Shown: piece after piece, positions 6,107-57,918 of the stretch
Layout of the letters: every line of letters starts with the position of its first letter
How positions within the stretch are numbered: position 1 is the first letter of the stretch
Source: Hesseltinella vesiculosa
Taxonomy: Eukaryota > Mucoromycota > Mucoromycetes > Mucorales > Cunninghamellaceae
DNA length: 64,000 nucleotides
Reading direction: 5' to 3'
NCBI GenBank assembly: GCA_002104935.1
Contig: MCGT01000001.1
Location: forward strand, 806,001 to 870,000
Program-made: the position numbers and the translations under genes
Notes under the pieces: model-generated
Database searches by the model: none
What the model was told of the DNA's origin: nothing
Seen by the model: only the letters and a program-made list of their open reading frames with translations

Positions 6107-7521
6107 TGTGTATCGTGTGTTGACTTTCTCCAAGGGCAATAAAGGGTGGTTCACAAAAGAAAAAGAAAAAGAAAATAAAAAGAGAAATCGCCAACAGGTA
6201 TCAAATCTACAATGCCAAATTAGACGTCAGTAAGATAAAGGAGAAGGCGAACAGCAGGGTGGGATCAATGTCAAAAAAAAAAGGATGTGGTGGGAAAAGA
6301 GAGGAGATTTCAGATTGTTATTCTTTTTACCTTCAAAAACGAAAATGATAGACGGGGAGGAAGGGAGATTAAGGGAGGAATCACAATGGTATTAAAGGGA
6401 TAGGGATCGTTTATGCTTTTCTGCTGAAAATAATCAATGGATGAGGTGTGTGAATGAAAGAAAAAGGAGAAGAAAAACAAGAGGTCGTCCCCATACGTCT
6501 TTTTTTTTTTTTTTTTTTAAGCTTTGCTCCTCGGCCAATCAGCGCTTCGGGAATTGATTCTAATGGTTTGTGCGACAAGGATCTGCTCTCCTGCTCTCTT
6601 CCTGATCCACAACTGCTAGAATTTTGCCAATGAGTGACCTTTTGCTCCACCGATAAACTTACCGTTTCTAAATTAAGAAAAACAGGATGGTAATTGATCA
6701 AGCTGGTTTTATTTGGTAGGTTTGTTAAACTGGAGATCTGGATTGGTGAGGGTCATACTTCCAGCCCATTTGTCATTCCATACGTGTGTTCAAAATTTGA
6801 GGTCAATCAAAATATTGATGGTTGTCGCACTGATATTTTTCACAGCCAATAACTGCCGAGATCAGAGGCGAAAGGCGGCGGCCCAGCAAGAGTCATTTTT
6901 TGCCATTCAAAGCAGCATAGCGCCTCTTCTATTGGGTGTTGTGGTATAAAGTAGCAGCGGGGGAGACGTTTTGGATGATGTAGCCAGCATCGATGCCGCG
7001 AAATGATGGTGTGATGAGCGGTGTTGGTGAGATTCACATGGGGCTTCTCATGAGATAGTTGGGTCACTCAGTTAGATCTCGGTCAGCAGTTCATTGCTCA
7101 CAGGCTTGGGCTCCAGGAGATGTTGGCTCTGAGGAACAGAGACAGGCACTTTCGTGGCAAGTCAGATCGATTGTGGCCGACTTTTATTGAGACAAACGCA
7201 ATGCAGTTGTCAATAATGAAGCTCGTCGCCGCAACAGGTAGATCAGATCCACATCCAGGTGTAATCGAGAGGTGGTGCCGTTTGTCTTGATGCTTGGTTG
7301 GCATACCTGAAAGTCATTGATAGCTAGTTAATATGATGGTTTCTTGTGGCGTGTTCGGATGCTCTTCCACTATGGAAAAAAAGAAAACTCCGTTACCAAT
7401 CAGAACGTGTGTTAACTGTTGGCTAAAAGCACCAGTTACCAGATAAAAGCATTAAACACGTTCTTGCCAGAGCAGACGGTAACCCCTTTTGCAGGGTTGC
7501 TTTGGAGAAGAAATATGAAAA
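6107..7521. other. Intergenic spacer between RasGAP and Fanzor genes
   Basis: About 1.4 kb lying 5' of the RasGAP gene and 3' of the Fanzor gene. It is rich in A/T homopolymers, with a long T run near 6500-6520. The short open frames on both strands look like chance. No tRNA or transposon ends recognised. The last ~80 bases beside the Fanzor stop would be the place to look for a guide RNA, but I see no structure I can defend. Confidence 0.5.
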
Positions 7522-10500
7522 CTAAGCGGTAGGAGAGGTTGGAGGGCGTCGGCGTGGGCAAAAGGCCAGGGGGCGTTGCTTGTGTTGGAAAAAGTGTTGA
7601 CCAATGGACACCATATTGCAGGCCGCCATGACATCCCGGTCAAAGATGACCGCACAGGAGCTGCAGCGCAGAAGTCCATAAATCTTGCCACCATTCACGA
7701 CTGGGTTTTTGGTTGGGCCATGGCAGATAGAGCAGAGCTGCATTGAAGAAAAAGAATGAGCCACCTCGTTGCTGACATGCTTTTTGTTTTCACCCACCTT
7801 GCTTGTTTTGAACTCATTCAGTGAGATAACAGCAAGCTTGCCCTGACGTTGTCGGTTTTCCAATTGGTCAAACACCAGGGAAGACGAGCCAGGAAGCTGC
7901 TTTTTGAGCGGGGCGGCGACCTTCCGGCCCTTGAGGCCATCACCAAAGAGTATTAATGGAACTCTTTCGCTGGGAAACTTTGTCACACCGTGACGAAGAC
8001 GTGTGCTTGGCTTCATTTGCGGCGCAGGTCTACAACAAAAAATAAGCCCACCTGGACCTCCTGAATACTACGACGACTTGCCTCTTTTCTTCCATTTCAT
8101 TGATCAGATCAATGCGGTGGTCACGGTCCAGGTCTCGTTGGGTGCGCATGGTATGTAATGTTGCTTCCCATAAATCCGTTGTCCCAGGTAGCATCGAGCC
8201 AGCAGAGCATTTTAGCAGATTTTCAGTCTTCATGATAGAAACATCCAGCGCTGCAAGGTGTTCCACCATCGCCTTCTTGGCCTTGCTGATCTTGAAGGCC
8301 TTTTTCTTCCGAGCTTTCTTCTGACGCTTGCGCCGATTGCGGTGGGTACGTTTGCGGTGGCCACGCACATTGCGCTGGGACTTGACATACTTCTTGGACA
8401 GTCCAGCAAGAACACTGGCAACGTATGCAACACCCCGCTGGCGGCCTCTGTAAGCATTGAAGCGGTCGATGGAATGCTGAAGGCCGTAAAAGTCGAAGAA
8501 GAGCGGGAGACGATCGATCAGGTATTGGATTCGGATGGCATATTCGGAGGCGCTGGTGCTTCGGTGGGAAGGGATGGCAGCCTCCAGCTGATGGAACGGT
8601 AATTGCTGACCTCGGAAAGAGTATGTCGTGGAAACCTTGCGTCGTTCCAATTGTTGAATTCGTCGCTGCGTTCCACATTGCGAGCGATATTCCTTTGCCG
8701 ATACCTTGATGACTCGGTAAGGCAGATGGCGAGATGGGGGGTCTGGGGTGGTAGGTACAGCACTGCCAATCAAAGGCATGCTGATGAGGCTTGCTTGTTC
8801 CATATCAGCGCTGTCAGTGGCGTTGTCAAAGTCCTGTTGTTGGTGTAAAGGCAGGGAAGCACGTACAGGGCATGGTGCATCTGCATCCGCCTTTTCCTCG
8901 TCATTATCGTCATCAGGTTCTTCATCAACAGAATCTTCGTCATCCTGGGTTTCACGGAGCATGGAAAGTGGATAAGGCGTGCCATAGCTGCCAGTAACGA
9001 TGGCACGGCGACCATGTCGAAACGTTCTACCAGTTCGGTATCCCAGTGATCCAGGCTGGGCAGCTTCATCGTTGAGCGATGCGTGGTTGGCAAACGAATA
9101 AATTCAAAGCAGCACGAAACGCCATCGCACCAAATGTGGCAAGCAAACAATGGACAGTTGTATAGTACTCCCGCAAGCATGTCCCGGACACTAGGCGAGA
9201 AGAAGAAGAAAAAATCAGAAACTACTCTCTCTTTTTTTTTTTTGGTGTCTGCAAAACTTGCCTCCCGTACCCAGGGCCGCCAAAGTTGAACTTCTCCATG
9301 TGGAACACCTTGAAAAACATGGGCAAGGCACGGATGAATGCGGCGTCGGGTTCACCAGCCATATCACTGTTGCTTGCTTCACCACCAGCGGTAGCCACAG
9401 CGTGACCAGGAGCATCGCATTCGGCTAGGTATTTGATCGTGTCGGGTAGGATGGGGATGAATTGGCGTCCAAAGTGGGGCTCAGGAAGGATGGTAAGCTT
9501 TGGGCATTTTTTGGGGTTAGCATTGGGCTGGGACTTGTACTGCTCGTATTGCTTGTTGATGTTGATGTAGACAAGCAAGGGACTGCTAGGATTTTGGGAC
9601 AGAGTTGTTGATGTCAATTTACCAACGTAGTGGGGTTTCAAGGCCAGTGTTTTCGCCTTCACATCGGCAATCGCCGCTTCTTCGGCAGACACGCCAGGGA
9701 CACTGTTTGTGGCCGATCCAGATGTGACCCCTGATTGAGGGTGGGAGGGTCTTTCTGCGAAGTTTGTGTAGATGCCATCCACCTGCTGGTCAATATGAGG
9801 GATCTGAAAGAGACAAAAAAAAGTCGAACACATTCCCTTTTTTGGTACCGCCCTTTTAAAAAACTTACTTGGACATCCGTGATGGCAAAGGAGAATCGAA
9901 TAAACTTCTTGACCTTTTTCTCAAAGTCGATCACCAAGCAATTGGAGTAAGCGGAGGCAAGCGCTGACAAACATGGCCCAAAAGTACGTCCATAGAATTT
10001 ATGCGGGTGATGGAAGTGAAGGCTGCGGTCATCAGCAGGAATGAGTAGGGCTGCATTGTCGAGCGGATCCATGCCGTGGTGGTCGTTGGGGTTGTACACG
10101 ATGTTTGGGTGGTCGCGGACAAACTGGTTCCAGTGAGGCAGAAAGGTGGGAGGAAGGCTTCGCAGGATGTGAGCGTTGGTGATCCCCGGTCGCCGCGGGT
10201 TGCGGGGGTAGATGAGCTGCGAGATGGACAGGAGACCGTTCTGGCTGATCATGATGCTTTTAAAGTCAGACGGGTGAGTGAGAGCGAAATGGTTGATAAA
10301 CAATTGGAGGCGGAAAAGGATGTTCTTGTTGCAGGCGCTGGTCGATTCTATGTTGCGCTTCAAAGCGAGCTTGAAAGGCTGCCGGACGGCATCTTCAAAG
10401 CTTTTTTTTATGGTGTAGCGCTCACCGCCTGGCATCATCTCGTTGATATAATCCTTCTTGTTCGTGCGATGGAAAGGACAGAGGCGGCTGGCAGACGAAC

Positions 10501-10846
10501 AGTGTCCCATTTGGCCGCATGTGGCACACGGTCCCACAGCATCAGGATTTCGCTCATCTTCTTGGCGCTGCCGTCTCCCCTCGGCGCGATCGTTTTGTTC
10601 CTGTTGTTGGGCACGTCGTTGTGGCGTGGGCCCAGTTTCCCGTCCTACGAAGATGGGTAAAGAAAAAGACATGATTGAAATTATGGATGAATTATGTTTG
10701 CGATAGACTTTTGCTTGTGACCAAACAGTGTAGAATTGTTCGGTGGTCATCCAAGCTTGGCCCAACTGATCAGGCAACGCCCGGCGGAAATCTTCTTCAG
10801 GGATGTGGCACAGAGTTACGTAGACGGATTGAAGAAGCGATTGCAT
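7522..10846 (-). pseudogene. Fanzor (eukaryotic TnpB-like RuvC nuclease), frame-broken at RuvC-I
   Basis: Fanzors are eukaryotic relatives of transposon-encoded TnpB and act as RNA-guided DNA nucleases. Exons inferred: 10846-9869, 9803 to 9262 or 9271, 9190-8082, 8029-7798, 7737-7522. In order one sees a CCHC knuckle (CATCGQMGHCSSASRLC), the N-terminal helical region (SFEDAVRQPFKLALKRN), LTILPEPHFGRQFIPI, the CDGVSCCFEF segment before RuvC-I, a Lys/Arg-rich helix region, LILFGDG, the RuvC-II glutamate in NEFKTSK, a CxxC...CxxC zinc ribbon (LCSICHG...LLRCSSC), and the RuvC-III aspartate in FDRDVMAACNM. Exons 4 and 5 join exactly as FKTSK|LCSICHG through a GT-AG intron. Exon 3 carries a frame break near 9001-9018: upstream reads ...VERFDMVAV, downstream reads GRRAIVTGSYG in the -1 frame, so the DPG aspartate is missing. 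It is therefore probably inactive unless this is a sequence error. The start is the first ATG of the long frame; an earlier exon is possible. Family call is confident. Confidence 0.82.
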
Positions 10847-12309
10847 CAGGGAAAGATAGAAAATGAGCAGAAATAAAGAAAAAGATAGAAGAGCCTAGAT
10901 AAATAAACAAACAAACAAAAAGAATCGCGTGTTGCGGAAGATCAAACCAATGCCAATGCCAGTGAGCATGACCGCCAATCACATCCTTAGCCCTTTTTTT
11001 ACTATGTACCTTTCTTTTTGAAATATAAAATGAAGTAGCGTACCATCAATGATAAAGGTAGCACTCTTTGCCTATCTCTATTGCTCATTTTACTGTGCTT
11101 CTTAAATAAAAACTTAACACTGCCTGGCAAACCAAACCACGAAAAAAAAAAATTCAAGACCCAGAGTCATCCTCAGTTAAACAAAAATGCTCCAGATTGG
11201 AGAAGTTGCGACTATCCATATCATTCTGTCTATTTCACGCATGCCTCTCCCTATGCCTTACCATGCTTGGTCTATAAATCCAAGGTGGTAAAAATAACAT
11301 GCTTTGCAGAAAGATGCGACAAATTCTTTTCTGCAAGCGGATCATGTTAGTGCGCTTAGTAGCGCATATGCAGCTGGCTATTTGATTGGTTGCGCTGTTT
11401 TTTCTTCTCAAATCACCAAAAGCTGAAAAGTGATTGAAGGTCAGAAACAAAAAGCGCGCTTATTTTCACCGTCTTTTTTTTTTTTTTTTTTTTTTTTTTT
11501 TCCGGCTGGAGATAGACCTCTTTGCTTCCCATAATTAGTACTATCTTGAGGGAATATAGTGTATGGGACAGTATCGACACCTCAAATTGCATAGAAATAA
11601 GGAGAAGGTAGAAAATAGGGTGGCGTTTTTTTTTTCCTTCTTTTTCACCGACGCAATATGCTCTTGAACATCCTCTTTAAACGACAGCCAACAAAAGTAC
11701 GGGAAAGGCTTATTGGTCTTTCAGTTCAAACATTATCTCGAGGCCTCTGGTGCAAAAAGCCCATGTCTTCTCGGATCAGGAAATTTTCGGCCCACTGGCT
11801 TTGACCAGCCAGAGAGAGGGGGGCCTTTTTCAAGTCAGGATGGCGCTAATCTAGCGGTAGACCCAGTAATCAAGCGTCATCACAATCTAAGCCGTGGCAA
11901 GCGAAAACCACGGTGGGTTGCTCAAGCTAAAGTAGGGTGATGTGATGAATGGGTGGGGTTGTTGTTCCCAGGAATTGCGGAGATCGTCAGAATATTGCTA
12001 GCACTGACGCCTACTCCATTCGATTTTTTCCCCACTTGGAAGTACGATTGATCTGAAAATGATGCAAAACCGGCTTGAGCATTCCGAATGTTCCTGAGGT
12101 TCCTTTTCAGAACGCCTGTATTTCTACTCATGTCCCTTGTTCTCATTGGTTAAACGTAAAGGGATCCGCGCTTGATGAAGAATAAATGGGAGACGAGGGG
12201 TAGAGGGGAAAAAGTGATAGACCTATTATTGTACTCCCTAAGAAAACGACGCAAGGAGTCTGAACGATGAAGGGAGGGTCATGCATTCGACACGGAGGAG
12301 GGAAACAAT
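10847..12309. other. Intergenic spacer with long poly-T tract
   Basis: About 1.5 kb between the divergent Fanzor and M13 peptidase genes. It contains a T run of roughly 28 bases near 11474-11501 and scattered A/T runs. No coding feature is supported on either strand. Confidence 0.5.
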
Positions 12310-12380: not shown

Positions 12381-14925
12381 ATGCCCATCTTGCCAACACT
12401 TTTGGGTCTCTCGAGTCAAAAAGTGTGCAATACACCTGTCTGCCATCAAATCGCCGAGACCCTGAAGCATGACGTTGACTTCAATTTGGATCCATGCCAG
12501 GACTTTTACGCATTCACCTGTAAACCCTAAACTGGATACACGCTTTCTTTCAAGTTTCTTTTATTAATGCATTTGACTTCTTATTTTCCTAGGTGGCGGC
12601 TGGATTCCCAGTGCGGTACTTCCCCCAGATCAGTCGCGTAATTAAATTAAAAATTTTCATTTCGACATCCTTTTTCTCACACACTTTTTTTTTCCCTTTC
12701 TCAGAGGTTTCTATCATTTCCAATCTTGATAACAAACATGTTGAAACTATCCATCGCATCTTAGAAGGTTCCTTTGAGGATCTGGCCCGGCGGTCTTCTC
12801 ACTCTTCACTCTGGAATGACCCCGAGATCGATAGAGCGAATTTTGCCCTGGTCAAGAATTACTACAATTCATGCATGGATCAGGCGGCCCTCGACCGCTT
12901 GGGATCAGCACCAGTCTATCCGTCCTTGGTCGACATCTTGAACTACACCGATCTGACCGACGCCCTGCTGAAATTGGTTGACAATGCCAACCACGCCCTT
13001 GTCCGCTTCACCATCGGCACCGATGACAAAGAGCCCAGCAAGAACCGTATTTGGATCGACATTGGGCATTTCATGGCCCCCTCCAAGAGCAACTATAAGG
13101 ACCAGCCGTTTGTCGAAAAATACAAGGAGCGGCTGTTCAACTTGATGCACGCCATCATCGGTCCAGGCGTCGACCTCGCCAACCCCGACGTCGCCTCCAC
13201 TCTTGCCCGAACCAAATTCCAACTGCTCACCACTGAACAGCTCCATACCGCCATTGACCGGTTCATCCTGGTAGAAATGTTCCTGGCTGATACCACCTTG
13301 GAAGCGTAAGTGCTAGCCAACGAGTGGCTTCTTTTTCGCCTCCATCATTTCTCACCTCCTTTTTTTTTTTTCCCGCTTCCGCCGTTTTCCTTTTTTCGTC
13401 TTCTATCTCATTCAGTGAAGATGCATTGAATCCAGCCCTCAGTTACAACCCTATCACAGTCAACAGCCTCGAAGAAAAATACCCAGTGCTCGATTGGCGC
13501 CGGATCCTTGCAACCATGGTGCCGGATCCTTCCTTCATTCCGGAAGAAGTTCTCGTCACGGCCATCTCCTACCTGGAGAATCTGACCACCTGGCTCCAAA
13601 CCACTCATGACATCGATGCCTTGTTGCATGATTACTTCTTGGTGCGCCATGCCTACATCAAAGCACCCTTAATGAGTGAAAAAATCAATCTCTTGTATTC
13701 GGCCATCAACGACGATCTCTTTTCTGGCGTCAACAAACTGTCGCCGCTTTGGAAACGCTGCACGGAACAGGTCAGTGCTGACTTTGGCCCATTGACCGGC
13801 CGCTACTATATCATGGAGAACTTTGGTGGCGAGGATGAACGCTTGGCCTTGCTCAACTTCCTTGACGGCATCCATGACAGCTGGCGATCCAACCTGCCCA
13901 AGCTGGACTGGCTCGACAAGCAGACCCTCGAATACGCCATGCTGAAGCTCTCCAAGATCACCCGCCAGGCTGGTTACAGCATTAAATCACCGGACGTCCG
14001 CTCGCCTTCTTCTCTTCGTGACTATTACGATGGCCTGGCCATGAACGCTGCCGCCTATTACGAAAATGTTGAGAGCGTCTATCGCTGGTCCTACAGCGAG
14101 CTCCTCGATAAGCTGCTCAAACCCGTAGATAAGGACGAATGGGAAATGTCTCCCCAGACTGTCAACGCCTATTACACCCCTACTGCCAACCAAATGGTCG
14201 TGACCGCCGGCATCAGTGCTCCACCTTACTACCTCCCCGAGGCGCCTGATTATTTGAACTATGGTGCCCTGGGCGTTGTCGCCGCTCATGAAATCACCCA
14301 CGCTTTTGACAACGACGGCCGCCTCTACAATGGCGATGGCGAGCTCAAGAACTGGTGGACAAATGAGACCTTGCAAAAATTCAATGACAAAACCCAATGC
14401 TTCATCGATCAATACAGCAAATTTGTAGAAAAAAATGACAAAGGCGAAGAACAGCATCTCAATGGCAAGGTAATCCTTGTCCCCTTGGCCCTACTCGAAA
14501 GAGAAGCTCATCTTTTTTTTTTTTTTTTTTGTATTAGCTTACTCTGAGTGAAAACCTGGCCGACAATGGTGGCATTGCTGTGTCTTACGCAGCCTATCAA
14601 GCAGTTGCCAAAGTGAAGCCACAGGAAACGCTACCTGGGATCAACCTGACCCCCGATCAGCTCTTTTTCATCAACTTGGGCCGAGCCTGGTGCACAAAAG
14701 CAACGCCGGCTTCAATTATGAATCAGGTTAGATTTTTTCTTTTTTTTATATGCAGCCTTGGCTAAACAGATCTCCTTTTTCTTTTTTTAGATCCAGACGG
14801 ACCCTCACTCAACTTCCAGAGCCAGAGTCAACGGCATGGTTCAGAATTTGGAGGCTTTTGCTCAGGTGTTTAAATGCCCTGTGAATTCCCCGATGAACCC
14901 CCAAACCAAATGTAAAGTATGGTAG
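12381..14925 (+). CDS. M13 family zinc metallopeptidase (neprilysin/endothelin-converting-enzyme type)
   Basis: Six exons (12381-12519, 12593-12637, 12705-13305, 13416-14469, 14538-14726, 14791-14925) join in frame to about 720 residues, the normal family length. The N-terminal part has the conserved VCNTPVC...DPCQDFYAFTCGGW cysteines. The catalytic part shows NAYYTPTANQMVV, the zinc site HEITHAFDNDGR (codons at 14287-14301), and the third zinc ligand in SENLADNGG. The end, CKVW, is the canonical M13 terminus. The family cleaves short peptides, usually as type II membrane ectoenzymes. Here no clear membrane anchor is visible before the first cysteine; MPILPTLLGLSS is only weakly signal-like, so an unseen upstream exon or a non-classical location is possible. 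Cysteine retention suggests a secretory or extracytoplasmic fate. The introns are short, with T-rich acceptors. The family call is certain; the substrate is unknown. Confidence 0.95.
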
Positions 14926-19335: not shown

Positions 19336-22300
19336 TTACCAGAGATTTTCTAGGTCGTCAGGCCATTGCTTCTTGAGTCTAGCTTCCCAGTAGCCTCCTT
19401 TGTAAGTCCAATCAGATGGATCGTTGGGCGATTGGCTGAACCAGCGGGGCTGAGGGGATTTTCCTTCATGTTCATACTGTGTACGTCGCTGTCGTTGCAT
19501 GGTTTCCAATCGCTGTTTCTCGTCCTCGGCTAGATCCATTTGGCCTAATCAAAAAAAAAAAAAAATACGGGGTGAGAACGACGGCTTATCGTTTCTTCTG
19601 CTGGTTATTTTTTTTAGTACCGTGTTCTATGCATCGTTGATCAGGTCGCAAACGAGTATCGGTGGGTGGCAGTTGGTGCTGTTCAATCTCCGTGATTTCG
19701 TTGAGCTCCATGCAGTACTGGGTGTAACCAAAATAAGCCTCATACTCTTGGATCTGGGGTGGATGCACCTTCCACAGACGCTCAAAGTTACGCTCGTCAT
19801 GGACCAACTTCAGTTCATCGCTCCAGGTGCCTTCGACTTGTCGAACCGCCTTTCCATCTCGATAGCACACCATCGTGATCTGGTTGGCTTCCTTTGGCTG
19901 AGATGACCACACACTTGTTTTCCCTTCCTTGTACGTGATCATGGCATAGTCACCGGTGGTCTCGTTCATAACCTTGACAGAACCCAGGTGTTCTAGATAT
20001 GGCGAACCCACTCCAACCATGTTGCGGAGATGGCTCGTCGGTTTGTTGAAAGAAAAATGGTGGCCCGAGGATTTTAGATGTACATGTGCTGCACCTTTGG
20101 AGGTGAATTCCATCGACCGGCCTAGCAGATAAAATCAGAAAAAAAAAAAAAAAAAAAAACGGGCCGTCCCCGCCGGCTTACCCCAGAATGTGGAAGAGCA
20201 CTCTGCTGATTGCCAAAAGCTGTACTGATTTGATTCAGCATGGCACTGTAGAGTAAGGAATAAGTATCTGACCACTGTGAATGATTGTATGCTCTCGCTT
20301 TCTGATACTCACAGCCATGACGTTGGGTCGGTGCGACACTTTTTCAGCAATAAACTTAAAGCCACGATCAGGACGGACACATTCATAGGTTTCAAAGAGC
20401 AGTGGGTTAAACGGTTTTTTGCTGCTGCGATATTGGCTTGAGGCAAAGGCGGTGACAGAGAAGACAGCAACGTACATCAATTGATCGATTGGATCGGCAA
20501 AGCCATTGGCCCGGTCCAGGAGTGAAGAGTACTCTAGCTCTTCACAAAGACGCTGGAGCAGATTGAGGGGTTCATTGAGCGAGACAGGCATGGAGATGGA
20601 CGACAAGTCTTTGCCGACAGCCTTCCGTATCAGGCCGAGGTAATTCACAGAAGATTCATCCATGCGTTGGGGTAAGCGGCTGCGTCGTTGGATCGTGGTA
20701 TGGGCCATGGTGACATCCAACTTGATCGTCATGCTAGATCGCTTCGATACCGTTTCATCTTGACCTAGTGAAGCAGAAAAATAAAAATGAATAAAAGGGT
20801 AGACGACCAGTAGCTACCCTTGGTTCTCACCTTCATCTGAGCTTGAATCGTCTTGGGGGTCATCATAGAGGCAGCGGTCAGTTGATTCACCGTCATCCTG
20901 AGAATCGACATCGTCTTCCTCATAAAAGTCCTGTGCATCGGCATATTGGCTTGTAGAAGAGGACATGGAATAGAAGCTAGTGGAGCTGGGGGTAGTGATG
21001 GCTGACGATTGCTGATATATTGTGCTGAGGCGATTGGTTTGACGTTTGTACTGGAGCTGGAGCCTGGCGTAATCCTGTTCTAGGCTGGCCCGGAGCTGTT
21101 GCAAGTGCTGGATTGTGTGCTGCATCTGTTCCAACTTGAGCTGGTGTATCGGTGTCGTTTCCAAGGGCTCTGTGGGTGACAACGGTGCCTGTGATCCTCT
21201 CCTGAAAGTGAACTTGCGCTTTATCCGTTGAGAATGGGAACTGCTAGCACTGCTGGGAGGTGATTGTTGAAGATGAAGGCTACTTGAGTTGGTGGATGTG
21301 GGCGATTGCAAGGGTGACACAGGTAACGTCAGATCGTGGTGTTGTAGGTCCTGAACATTTGCGGTTTCGGTCCAAGTCTTCATCAATTGATGCACATCTT
21401 GGCTCAGGGAGATCAAATCTTTGTTCATCATGTCAAAGCCAACTTCCATGCTGTTGGGCTGGTCGTCATCCTCTTGCTCATCGCCACTGCTGACCAGGTC
21501 CTTGTCTGAGGTATCCTCTTCGGTATCGTTGCCCTGCTGAGAAGTGGGAGAAGCAGGCTGAAGGCTGGCGGAATAACGGTTCTTAGCATCAGGCAATAGC
21601 CACTCGCCATCGACAAGAATCCCATTAGGGACGCTTCCTCGGTGACTGAAGCGAGAAGCATGATGCTTGCGCAAGGCGTTGACCCATTTGTTGAACTGCT
21701 CCTTTGTCAAAGCTTTCAAATGATAAACGTTGGTCCCTGTGTCCATGTGAATGGTGCGCTGCTTTGGATAGATGGTCATGGTTGTCAAAGCCACTTGAAT
21801 GGATCCTCGTTTGATGCAATACGGGTCGACTGAATAGGACAGCGTGCCATCAGGAAGCAATTGGAACCATCGTTTTGCCCAGCCTGGTAGCACAAAAAAA
21901 AGTGAGTTTGACGAGCTTCCATGCTTTCATTTTTCATTGGTTACCTTGCATTCGCTTGCGACGTTTCTTCAATAGGTAATCGGCCATAATTTGATCTTCT
22001 TGCAAGTGCTCATCCACGGATTCATCACTGGTCACGGAGAAGCTCAGTACCTTGGGCTTTTGAATCGAGCTTGTATTGTCTAGGTTTTTTTTAAAAAAAA
22101 AGCTGCGTTGAACAAACATACCAGCCGTTTCTATCCAGGGGATCTGTTTTCTTGCCGCCCCTTGTCAACCCCCTCACACCTCTCCCGTTTCCTTGGCTTA
22201 CCAAAGAGCAGGACAAAGTTGCCCGGTTCGCTCGCCACATGCGATCCTTGGATGGTTCTATCGGATGACGGTACGTGACTGACAGGAATAATTTCCTGAA

Positions 22301-33640: not shown

Positions 33641-36600
33641 CTATGATCTGATGCAAGTACCAAGCTCGGGCGTGGGAGTGGCACCGCCATTGGCAGGTGT
33701 GGTAGAGGGGGTGACAGGAGCGGCGGTGGTGCCACGGTTGTGAGCCATATGGGCCTTGACCAAATGGCCAGCCTAAAAAGAAAAGATGGGTTATTATATA
33801 ATGCCACCCTGTCTCATTTATCTTTCCAATTTTTACTTACAGCAAGCGCACTCAACAAGGAGAGTTCTCCGGCCATGACAGCAGCACAGATAATACGAGC
33901 AAGACGCTGGGCATTCTTACCAGGCTGATCGGGATGAGGGCCACTGACGCCCAGGAGATCGAGCATGGATCGTTGAGGAGGCAAGATAGTGCCACCGCCA
34001 ATGGTACCGACTTCGATGCTGGGCATAGTGCAAGAGATGTGGAGGTCCTGGCCGTCATTGACAGCCTTCATGAGAGTGATGCAGTTGGAGCTTTCGACGT
34101 TTTGAGCAGGATCTTGACCAGTAGCCAAGTAAACAGCTGTGAGGATGTTGGCAGCGTGAGCATTGAATCCACCGATGGAGCCAGCCATGGCACTTCCAAT
34201 CAAATTTTTGCTGGTGTTCAGCTCAACCAGGGCAGCGACCGAGGTCTTGAGCACCTTTTCAACGACAGAGCCGGGGATCACGGCCTCGGACACGACCGAC
34301 TTGCCACGGCCTTCGATCCAGTTGATGGCAGCAGGCTTTTTGTCGGTGCAGTAGTTGCCAGAGAGCGAGATGATTTGCATGTCTTCAAAGTGTTCTTGCA
34401 GTACTGACAGGGCCTTTTCACAGCCCTTGGAGATCATGTTCATACCCATGGCATCACCGGTTGTGGTGGAGAAACGAATGAAGAGGAGTTTACCAGCAAT
34501 AGCCATTTTGAGTTTGCGTACGCGCGCGAATCTCGAGGTTGAGTTGAAAGCGTCCGTGATAATGCTGTAGCCTTCGGCTTCGAGCCAGAGTTTGCAGGTT
34601 GCCGCACGTACAGCCGAGGGAAATTCCACACAAGGGCCCCGGGTCATGCCATCGGCGGTCACGACAGTTGCGGCGCCACCACCAGCATTGATCGCTTTGC
34701 AGCCACGCGCTGTCGAGGCCACTAAACAGCCTTCGGTTGTTGCCATTGGGATGTGGATCAAGTCTCCATCAATATTCATCGGGCCAGCAATGCCGACTGG
34801 CAAGGGCATATAACCGATCACATTTTCACAACAAGCACCCATCACCTTATCGTAATGGTAGTTTTCCAGAGGCAAGGCGCTGGCTTCGAGGGTTTTGGTC
34901 ATTGAGGCACGCGAGATCAAGGAGCGGCGGATGCTGACGGCTCGCTCAAAGTCACCCAGGGTTTTTTCTAGGGCATACGGGGCCATCTTGCCAGCTTGCA
35001 CGAGTGTAACAATCTCTTCGTCGTGCAATTCATCAGGCGAATGCAGCAGCGTCATGCAGGATTCCAAGGATCGGATGGGCTGATCGTCGTTATTTTGGTG
35101 GCGGCGGTGATGCTGGCGACGGTGAGTTGGTGGATGGACAGCAGGCGAGGGGACTCGGGCAGGGGCAGGGGCAACGGGAAGTTTAGTTGCTTGGGTGTTA
35201 TCCATGGTGAGGGGTGTGGTGGCCGCGGTAGGTTTGGGTTGTCTGACCACATTAAACAAGTATGTGTTGAGGAACAAGGACACGAACAAGGCGACTGTCA
35301 GCCACTTGCTGATAACGGGGTGCTGGATGTAGACATCGTATACATCAAACAGGGAGGCGAGAGGTTGAACAATCGTGTCGGGGAACAATTGCCATCTTGA
35401 GCGAGCCGTGTGGAAGAGAACGGATGGAGATACTTCGACCATCACTGGGAAGACCGCATTGGTGTCCATTTTGTATGCGTCCAACAGGGTGTGCAAGAGG
35501 TCGGCCACAGCAGGCTGTGTCACGTCAAGTTGTGGCCCCGACTCAAAAGTGGAACAAATGTTCAAGACTTGCATGCCAACGAAGCCAGCAATCTAAAAAA
35601 AAAAAAAAAAAAAAACTGTGAACACAGTCATCGAAAAATGCATACAGGTAAACGATTCGACCAACAACTCACCAACAGAAGTTTGATGCGGCCAATCAAT
35701 GGGTCGTTTGCTTTAACGTCGTCTTTGCCAAATACGTCAGCATCGTTGTTGCTGAGCGCTTTGACCACCGTTTTCTCAATCAGATCTTTTTTGGCTTGCG
35801 ACACAGGTGAAACAAAAAGAGAAGCATTGTCATCACCGAGCGTATTGATTTCGCGGATGCGTCCGAGCTGGAGGGAAAAAAAAGGGCGGTGAGCAATTTG
35901 ATCGACAGATGAAAAGGTTATTTTGTCCTACCTCGAGCTTCAATGCCAAGACGGCAGTGTACCAAGTAAACATAAAGAAGAGGTCAAAAGCCAAAAGAAT
36001 AGCGCTGAGCAGGCAAAATTCGCGCAGACCGCCGATGCCTGACTTGGCACCCAAACAAAGGACGAGGATTTCAATACAGCAATCACGAGCCAAAGGGAAC
36101 GCGACGATATCGACAGCCATCAGCAAGGTCTTCCAGATGGTTTGTTTGGGCACTGGTGATTTTTTGTGAGCCATCAGCACACTCTTGGTCAGTTTAAAAT
36201 GGCGTTCGAAGCCAATAGTAACCACAAGGAAAGGTAAGGCTTCACTATTGCCAATTAGAAAAGGTCACACAAAATCAGTACATGGTTGAGAGATAAAATA
36301 GAACGGGTTGAGCGCCGACTTACGCCAAGGTGCTTGCATGAACCTTGATCCCGAGCATGTGAACTGTCAAGAAGCCAAGCATGAAGGAGAACAGGCCATT
36401 GACAACGACAGCAGTAGCCAGAGTATAGCGGGAGCCCATGGAGCGCATGTTCAAGTACAGAGAGATCACGGTGGAGATGGCCATGACATAGCCAACCAGT
36501 ACAACGACGATGTCCACATTGTCAGCAACCTGGAGAGTAGAAAGGGAAGATGAGAACAGGCATATGCTATTGGTTATTTACCTTGATCATTTCACAGAGG

Positions 36601-55920: not shown

Positions 55921-57918
55921 ATGACGGCGTCAGATGACTCACCTGCATTTATCTTGACATTACCATGGGAAATCGTTTACAAGATTGTCGATTACATTCA
56001 TCTCGATGATCTCTTGACCTTGCGTCTCGTCTGCCAACACTGGGACGTAATGGTATGTTCGATGGTATTCAAATCCTTGACACTTATCAGTGATTTCAGC
56101 TATCACATGGATCCTTGGCAGGTCCGGATCAACTATCTTGAAAATACTCTACATCCTTCAAGATCGATTGGCACTAATGTACAAGAAATCCGCGTAGAGA
56201 CCAACTGCGTAACTATGGACGAGCTCTATCTCCTGGTTCAAAAGTGTAGCAATGCTTCAACTCTGGTGGTGCCGTTCTTGACCTTGCGACAATGGAATTT
56301 ATGGCTCCTGAACGATACGGAATGGACGAAGAAGAAAATGAAACGAAAACACCGAATGCGAATCGATGACCTGCCCGCCGCTCCGGAGCTCTTGCAGCTA
56401 TTTGACCGCCTGTTTCTCGAAACGTCACTGACCACGCTCTCCATTCCAAACATGATGAACGGCGACATCTTTGAAAACGGCATCCTTCACCACTTGTCTG
56501 GGCTGCAGCACCTCGACCTTGGACATTTTATTTGCCAACCATACCTCAAGTCTACATTTCACCTCAGTCTTCTGGCTTCTCTCTGCGATACTTGCCCGCT
56601 GCTGGAGTCCCTTGTCTGCGGCCTGTCAAGTGCAGTTGGTGACAGTGTAGATCTAAAGCAAATCATAGACAATCCACCATTTGTCTGGCTCAACATGAAG
56701 CGATTGGACATCCACGTGCTTAGCTCCACTCTCCATGACGACCCCAGCTGCCCAATAGATCATACAAAAATGATCGCCTACCTTTCGTTGACGATGCCTC
56801 AGTTGTCCTCGTTAAAATATGTTTGCTGCAACAAACGGTATGGAAACTTCAAAGATCCCGAGCAAGAATTGGCCATGCTTGAGCAGCAGTTTGGGACACT
56901 GGAGACTTGGAAAATCCGCTTTGAATCATTGACCGAGCTTCACCTGGCAGGCTTGGAGGTCAACCCCTATGTGGCTCGTCTCATCTTTGTCCGGACCATT
57001 ACCTCGCTTCACATTGAGAACTGCGCTTGGGGATCATTTTTACCCAAACGAAATCACCCAACCGCTTCCTGGTGGAACAGTCACCTTGCCACTATGCCAA
57101 ATCTAGTGACGCTTGCCCTTGCTCCTTCCCAATCAGTTAATCAACATCGTGGCTCTTTTATCAGCGGCAGCTTTTGCATCCAGCAGATCCTCGACACTCT
57201 GCCTCGCCTTGAATCTCTGAGGCTGGAAAGCACAGGGATCGATTGGCTGGGGCCTCAAGAAAAAAACCTATCGGCCTCGGACCTGATTAGGATGCTCGTT
57301 GTTTCGCCAGAATCTTGTGGGCCGGCACATCCTTTGGTCTCCTTGAACCTCTCTGGCGTAACCTGCAGGGGCACTCGCCTGTTTGAATATCTCTCTGCCA
57401 GGTGCCCAAAGTTTGAATCGCTTACACTCTGGGCCGTAGTAATTGTGAACAGCACTGGACGTCGGCCCATGGCATTTCACACTCTCTTGCCTTCCCCATC
57501 CAATGATGTCGAGGATGCCAGTCAGCCTTCTCCCAGCAATGGAAGCATCAATTTATACGACCGCTTGTCTGCCTTGCACCAGATACACATCACCTGGCTA
57601 CCCTTGATCCATAGCAGATTGTCCACACTCGTCATCTGGAGTGGCTACCGACGCCCTGCTCGTGGCGGTACGCAATTCAACGCACGATACACACATTTTA
57701 GTACTTGTGCTGCACCTTCTTTTGCAAAAGATCAAGGTCATACCTTCAAAGGCTACGGCGTCGAGAACTACCACTGGGACAACGTTCACCCCGACATTCC
57801 TGTGCCGATGAGCTTTCCCGTCTTTCTTCAGTTATCTGAACATGATAGCTCCATTGGTGTGCTATGCAAACAGATGCGTTGCGACCCTCTCTTCTATGGG
57901 TACCCTCTACCTAGCTGA
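55921..57918 (+). CDS. F-box protein with leucine-rich repeats, copy 1
   Basis: A single-exon frame of 665 residues. The N-terminal F-box reads ILTLPWEIVYKIVDYIHLDD, LLTLRLVCQHWDVMVCSMVF, which would bind Skp1 in an SCF ubiquitin ligase. The rest contains degenerate leucine-rich repeats (LTTLSIPNMMNGDIFENG; LSGLQHLDLGHF; LPRLESLRLESTGIDWLG; PLVSLNLSGVTCRGTRLFEY), expected to recruit a substrate. Absence of introns is unusual beside its heavily split neighbours. A TATA-like GTATAAAAAT lies at about 55650, and AATAAA follows the stop at 57927. It has a paralogue at 63.4 kb in the same orientation. Substrate unknown. Confidence 0.85.
   Translation: MTASDDSPAFILTLPWEIVYKIVDYIHLDDLLTLRLVCQHWDVMVCSMVFKSLTLISDFSYHMDPWQVRINYLENTLHPSRSIGTNVQEIRVETNCVTMDELYLLVQKCSNASTLVVPFLTLRQWNLWLLNDTEWTKKKMKRKHRMRIDDLPAAPELLQLFDRLFLETSLTTLSIPNMMNGDIFENGILHHLSGLQHLDLGHFICQPYLKSTFHLSLLASLCDTCPLLESLVCGLSSAVGDSVDLKQIIDNPPFVWLNMKRLDIHVLSSTLHDDPSCPIDHTKMIAYLSLTMPQLSSLKYVCCNKRYGNFKDPEQELAMLEQQFGTLETWKIRFESLTELHLAGLEVNPYVARLIFVRTITSLHIENCAWGSFLPKRNHPTASWWNSHLATMPNLVTLALAPSQSVNQHRGSFISGSFCIQQILDTLPRLESLRLESTGIDWLGPQEKNLSASDLIRMLVVSPESCGPAHPLVSLNLSGVTCRGTRLFEYLSARCPKFESLTLWAVVIVNSTGRRPMAFHTLLPSPSNDVEDASQPSPSNGSINLYDRLSALHQIHITWLPLIHSRLSTLVIWSGYRRPARGGTQFNARYTHFSTCAAPSFAKDQGHTFKGYGVENYHWDNVHPDIPVPMSFPVFLQLSEHDSSIGVLCKQMRCDPLFYGYPLPS

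Follow-up and report, generated by a model that had tools for sequence, protein, structure and literature searches.

Fanzor elements of the Mucorales were described in 2013; in one Mucor family the 3' end is fixed, the 5' ends are fuzzy and the duplications are led by a motif (PMC3627910). Most Fanzor1 proteins are 600-700 residues long, and PpFz1 of Parasitella, also in the Mucorales, carries a RuvC insertion of about 100 residues (PMC11423790). The published Fanzor fingerprint combines DPG with a glutamate that precedes the zinc ribbon by six residues, at a spacing of DPG-x(120-160)-E, the range being printed as 120160 (PMC10711439). We analysed a stretch of 64,000 nucleotides (the window), in which an earlier note made from the letters alone had seen a Fanzor gene, together with the 27-Mb genome that contains it. 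The element found there is a degenerate member of a family of Fanzor DNA transposons; the family is probably new, its kind is known, and it is set apart from the named Mucorales elements by their descriptions. The earlier note had also taken the genome for a fungal one, which the relatives of an HMG-CoA reductase gene at 33814-35574 (Pfam) bear out, placing the host probably in the Mucorales or close to them: identity was 73% with Apophysomyces and 71% with Absidia; Rhizopus and Mucor were also matched, and the top match reached 75% among the best 120 listed. The window further holds ordinary fungal genes recognised by Pfam, an M13 peptidase at 13324-14547 (+) and a PH-domain protein at 20814-21893 (-), as well as an F-box-like protein at 55921-57918 (+) that scored under its Pfam cut-off.

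A DNA search of the genome with window positions 6800-11600 as query returned at least 22 further near-full-length copies, 89-97% identical and ending near the equivalents of ~11413 and ~7366. With the window copy the family therefore counts at least 23 near-full-length members, a lower bound set by the scoring of 40 out of 65 candidates. This copy family is far beyond chance. Its unit measures about 4.05 kb, the window copy (7366-11413, minus strand) being 4048 bp long, and the single gene recognised in it is a five-exon Fanzor of about 1030 residues; no second gene was recognised inside the 4.05-kb element, short of a full domain search of the remaining frames. The features of the window copy upstream of its 3' non-coding part are as follows.

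7366..11413, minus strand: whole element, right (3') end at 7366 and left (5') end at 11413, left terminal repeat absent; borders common to 22 other copies, give or take a few bases to some tens
9869..10846, minus strand: exon 1, start codon at 10846 (ATG kept throughout the 23-copy alignment, GT donor in all copies but one)
10478..10528, minus strand: CCHC-like N-terminal knuckle (alignment A4; position read from the sequence)
9262..9803, minus strand: exon 2, followed by a GC-AG intron in the window copy (23-copy alignment)
8082..9190, minus strand: exon 3, followed by a GC-AG intron (23-copy alignment)
9008..9009 (about), minus strand: site of a 16-bp loss, RuvC-I motif gone and frame shifted (alignment of 23 copies; placement ambiguous owing to a short repeat)
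7798..8029, minus strand: exon 4, RuvC-II glutamate at 7815-7813 (alignment; glutamate position read from the sequence)
7522..7737, minus strand: exon 5, with C4 zinc ribbon at 7734-7654, RuvC-III aspartate at 7635-7633 and stop codon (PF07282, alignment A1; positions read from the sequence)

The three motifs read in the earlier note were all found at the positions listed: NEFKTSK with the RuvC-II glutamate, the CxxC...CxxC zinc ribbon and DRDVMAACN with the RuvC-III aspartate. NEFKTSK is joined to LCSIC across the window exons, so that the rearranged glutamate stands six residues before the ribbon (ExxxxxxCxxC), and the aspartate of the exon 5 DRD is invariant in alignment A1. The note had described spliced exons whose junctions restored the motif order exactly. 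Five minus-strand exons separated by GT/GC...AG introns were indeed recovered; a single protein was not confirmed, exon 3 being 16 bp short and the frame shifted. The GC-AG introns begin at 9261 and 8081, and the one at 9261 is GT-AG in many other copies. We also considered a separate first intron within exon 1 (~10708-10645) and rejected it, as its removal would put the knuckle out of frame and the 978-nucleotide length of exon 1 is kept in 20 of 23 copies. The knuckle, which the note had presented as something added by this copy, is CCHC-like as claimed but is no peculiarity of the window, for three other Fanzor families of the same genome have CPTC...H...C knuckles that align with it.

Several profile searches bear on the family assignment. 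In the search of the genome itself PF07282 scored 28.8 bits in the window, above its cut-off of 26.3, on a stretch reading through the last intron, while exon 5 alone gave 21.4 bits, under the cut-off; the protein of an intact sister copy, L013, reached 35.2 bits. Across the genome the same profile gave 46 matches, 42 of them above cut-off, including four that passed only with their in-frame neighbours. NCBIfam TnpB models matched the intact protein weakly, far under their cut-offs. A C-terminal profile built from five sequences of this genome (alignment A1) matched TranC (1.8e-7), TnpB-like L79 (2e-6) and several TnpB and Cas12 chains in the PDB; the Fanzor chains followed with E 0.0026 for Guillardia Fanzor1 and 0.015 for the Spizellomyces Fanzor. 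In a protein database that includes Mucorales proteins, no Fanzor relative was found at 1e-5 (7764 candidates) or at 0.01 (58 candidates), and phage records gave no match. An AlphaFold2 model of window 7522-8028 from one sequence only had a pLDDT of 38.8, too poor for a fold search. Judged on motifs and profiles, the gene in the window is a Fanzor gene by descent, probably of the Fanzor1 rather than the Fanzor2 type.

The protein differs from the published fingerprint in its spacing. The stretch from DPG to the glutamate is 381 residues in eight intact copies and 377 in L024, far above the published 120-160, and neither D-X(125,275)-[TS][TS]XX-C4 nor DPG-x(120-160)-E describes it. L020 has an extra, earlier DPG by chance, and its count of 580 starts from that one.

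The part of the earlier call that did not stand concerns the nuclease. It had listed RuvC-II, the ribbon and RuvC-III, leaving RuvC-I unmentioned, and it is RuvC-I that the window copy has lost: 16 bp of exon 3 present in 21 of 23 copies are missing in the window copy and in L017 (23-copy alignment), so that the DPG motif is absent, the reading frame is shifted and the first stop falls at codon 647. Family and descent hold; as it lacks the RuvC-I aspartate and is out of frame, the window copy should, from its sequence, make no RNA-guided nuclease. A group of four copies, L009, L010, L011 and L017, separates from the other 19 with support 100, and every member of it is broken. Within this group L017 pairs with L011 (support 77) rather than with L009, so the shared 16-bp gap may be inherited or recurrent. 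The window copy shows that RuvC-I belongs in any list of motifs on which a gene is to be named a nuclease.

Reading frames were followed in all 23 copies, and the signature DPG...ExxxxxxCxxC...CxxC...D was sought in the 11 uninterrupted copies and in that of the window. The frame is uninterrupted, over 1016-1030 residues, in 11 of 23 copies, and ten of the 23 combine it with the full signature; in the eleventh, L029, a splice donor is altered and the RuvC-II glutamate is replaced by an aspartate. Among the ten intact copies dN/dS was 0.26 (0.142-0.384 per pair), from 45 non-independent pairs by a simple counting method. The intact copies are under purifying selection. One fungal genome thus offers 23 near-full-length copies with mapped ends, ten with an intact frame and full signature and 13 decayed or altered, a set that bears on what Fanzors do for their transposons.

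We then compared the non-coding ends, where the earlier note had expected any guide RNA, at about 7.3-7.6 kb. The corresponding features of the window copy are the following.

7366..7379, plus strand: right terminal repeat TCCACTATGGAAAA (pattern scan)
7366..7457, minus strand: conserved 92-nt module of the 3' non-coding part, a candidate scaffold of a guide RNA (contains 42 of the 51 columns invariant among 18 right ends)
7346..7365, minus strand: putative guide, first 20 nt past the right end (by position only)

The alignment of right ends comprised 18 of the 31 found, several of them deleted or rearranged further up, which inflates the contrast between the module and its surroundings. Pairwise mismatch in the 3' UTR was 0.040 (gaps 0.002); introns showed 0.08-0.14 and exons 2-5 0.06-0.08. 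We rejected this low divergence as proof of a guide RNA, since the 5' non-coding part (0.037) is equally little diverged; exon 1 stood at 0.036. Low mismatch is therefore not what distinguishes the 3' end; only the invariant block and the scarcity of gaps set it apart. An RNA structure was unsupported: folds of single sequences gave z of -1.34 and 0.01, and an RNAalifold structure was discarded as just 3 of its 24 pairs changed on both sides, each in one sequence, with a covariation term of +0.19. Rfam gave no match up to E 1. The putative guide 20-mer (7365-7346) has no second site in the genome when up to 3 mismatches are allowed. The predicted location thus fits the element end at 7366, the structure of an RNA there found no support, and a guide RNA at the right end is a prediction.

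The termini of the element are unequal. Right ends are near-constant, with single-base variants in a few copies, while left ends range from complete to missing, the left repeat being gone in the window copy. The left repeat starts CACTATGG, the inner motif ACCAATCA is common to both ends, and in L019 and L030 the full terminal repeat TCCACTATGGAAAA is exact at both. A pattern made of the element end and the inner motif matched 28 times, 27 of them in family copies; the remaining one is a solo end, L060 (G000:C85:260219), a right end of the element with the rest absent. The search for an autonomous partner with the same ends led to two near-repeats on contig C45 (L059), and the stretch between them was not similar to the element and contained no recognised transposase frame.

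Of 21 copies, 11 have YGA in the left flank at -4/-3, numbered from the C of CACTATGG, against 0-3 copies at 18 other offsets; L022 and L029 offer no anchor and do not enter this count. As the motif was picked after viewing the same copies, a binomial value would be an unfair test, and the contrast with the other offsets is the fair one. We propose YGA as the target motif and, by the logic of TnpB and Fanzor, as a candidate target-adjacent motif. Direct repeats of 6-12 bp starting with the GA of the right end were found in 5 of 20 copies compared with 1 of 380 swapped pairs, and each of the five has C or T before it in the left flank; repeats of at least 4 bp occurred in 9 of 20 copies and 55 of 380 swapped pairs. 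In the other 15 of the 20 copies no direct repeat of 6 bp or more was present. A wider comparison gave 6-7 bp matches in five swapped pairs too, four of them running into the element's own CA. The 4-bp repeats of L012, L013 and L015 abut a complete CACTATGG. L019 and L030, in which both terminal repeats are complete, have neither YGA at -4/-3 nor a direct repeat, and inspection of the window copy by eye revealed no GA-led direct repeat.

Other irregularities were seen at individual copies. At the left end of L028 a short stretch appears by eye to be doubled in tandem, the outer unit adjoining a 6-bp direct repeat. The left flank of L010 (G000:C56:356890-363946) equals the right flank of L011 (G000:C12:569614-576624) over 7 bp, and the reverse pair agrees over 5 bp, as if flanks had been exchanged between copies or the assembly joined crosswise; this is suggestive only because 5-bp matches are common in swapped pairs.

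We also looked for paralogues of the empty sites of 20 of the 23 copies, all but L009, L022 and L029, and saw none among the 40 candidates scored out of 73. The 20 joined flank pairs gave, in the candidates scored, 41 matches, 40 of which were the flanks themselves and one a repeat-like match of 42 bases.

The reading that we consider likely is that the window copy is a degenerate DNA transposon of Fanzor1 type in a Mucorales-like fungus, and that intact copies should encode a guide-RNA-using nuclease and would be moved by a transposase from elsewhere. In the intact copies the gene would make a TnpB-like RuvC nuclease working with a guide RNA that is transcribed through the right end of the element; the guide would be the flank immediately past that end. 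The presumed target is the empty insertion site, recognised beside YGA, and a cut there may favour retention or copying of the element. Movement to new sites would most likely depend on a transposase encoded elsewhere; cutting, homing and this mobilisation in trans are inferences. Since its ends are mapped, its protein bears a signal of selection and YGA is a predicted motif, the position of the guide and the motif itself are directly testable.

One form of such mobilisation in trans would be a non-autonomous CACTA/EnSpm-type transposon that acquired a Fanzor, its ends starting CACTA and PF02992 transposases moving it. CACTA elements begin with CACTA, as does the left repeat with its CACTATGG, and the genome holds seven matches to PF02992; at the six loci that carry them (L061-L066), no pair of such ends was seen in the 1.9-3.5 kb examined at each, and GA-led repeats of 4 to 12 bp fit poorly with a constant short duplication, so that we hold this particular form to be possible but rather unlikely. 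No PF02992 transposase lies within the element, all seven matches being outside the 23 copies. At least four of the seven are within ~2.4 kb of a contig end.

The genome also contains a second Fanzor family, represented by L041 (G000:C1:1364200-1371200) with L042-L050, in which seven copies are long (the query and six others at 96-99%). Its left ends begin TACAGTCTTTC in 4 of 7 and its right ends read GGAAATACAGTA in 6 of 7, which gives TACAGT at both ends; no further duplication was seen by eye. A repeated gene that adjoins the Fanzor copy (L041, 4285-6978) looks like a MULE/FAR1-type transposase.

A transposase could be dispensed with altogether if the element spread through DNA repair at breaks made by the Fanzor, its right end being joined at GA and its left end with variable trimming or filler. 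The near-constant right and variable left ends would suit such a process, as would the 4-12 bp repeats beginning at GA and the left flank of L016, where by eye a 12-bp duplication is followed by apparent locally copied filler ahead of the element start. The Fanzor is, moreover, the sole recognised gene and no other element was seen with these ends, and the Mucor MCi-2 and Chlamydomonas CRe families have similarly fuzzy 5' ends (PMC3627910). However, the expected target of a guide copied from the former flank is the former site, and no second target was seen for the 20 flank pairs (40 of 73 candidates scored). Terminal inverted repeats, moreover, are typical substrates of transposases. Cuts by the Spizellomyces Fanzor have also been measured 16-21 nt from the motif, not beside it (PMC10432273). 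We judge spread by repair improbable. The same low standing applies to its explicit version, a self-contained, Fanzor-only element that would enter YGA sites through a staggered break with an overhang of up to 12 nt, joined precisely at the guide end and loosely at the other; were it true, insertion sites, duplications and target-adjacent motif would follow from the nuclease and not from a transposase.

That the RuvC-I gap arose in assembly, the window copy being really intact, is scarcely credible, for although it sits between two near-identical short repeats, a place where errors might occur, the identical gap is found in L017 at a separate locus.

The closest counterparts are the Fanzor1 elements of the Mucorales (MCi-2, MCi-4, MCi-5, ROr-4 and PBl-3, and PpFz1), which likewise have a Fanzor gene in a Mucorales DNA transposon (PMC3627910, PMC11423790), and among them MCi-2 shares the fixed 3' end, the fuzzy 5' ends and the duplications led by a fixed motif (PMC3627910). 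Compared by description, our family differs from them in its terminal inverted repeat CACTATGG, in the motif YGA instead of ATAATT, and in a protein of ~1030 residues whose DPG and glutamate are separated by 377-381 residues. SPu-1 of Spizellomyces, with SpuFz1, also combines terminal inverted repeats with one encoded Fanzor and is present in 17 full copies, nine of them intact (PMC3627910), and SpuFz1 is the Spizellomyces chain matched by our C-terminal profile (E 0.015); SPu-1, in contrast, has 33-bp repeats, a putative TA duplication, a length of about 2.1 kb and a single open reading frame. In CRe-1/2/3 of Chlamydomonas (Helitron2 with Fanzor1) the 3' end is likewise kept, the 5' end is variable and duplications of variable length follow a fixed motif (PMC3627910), but these elements have Helitron2 ends, the motif TTTT and much 5' truncation, whereas the variation of left ends here ranges from a few bases to some tens. 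With TnpB of IS607/IS605 the protein shares the C4 zinc ribbon and the RuvC residues; it departs from TnpB in its eukaryotic introns, its DPG and its rearranged glutamate, and NCBIfam TnpB models stay far under their cut-offs.
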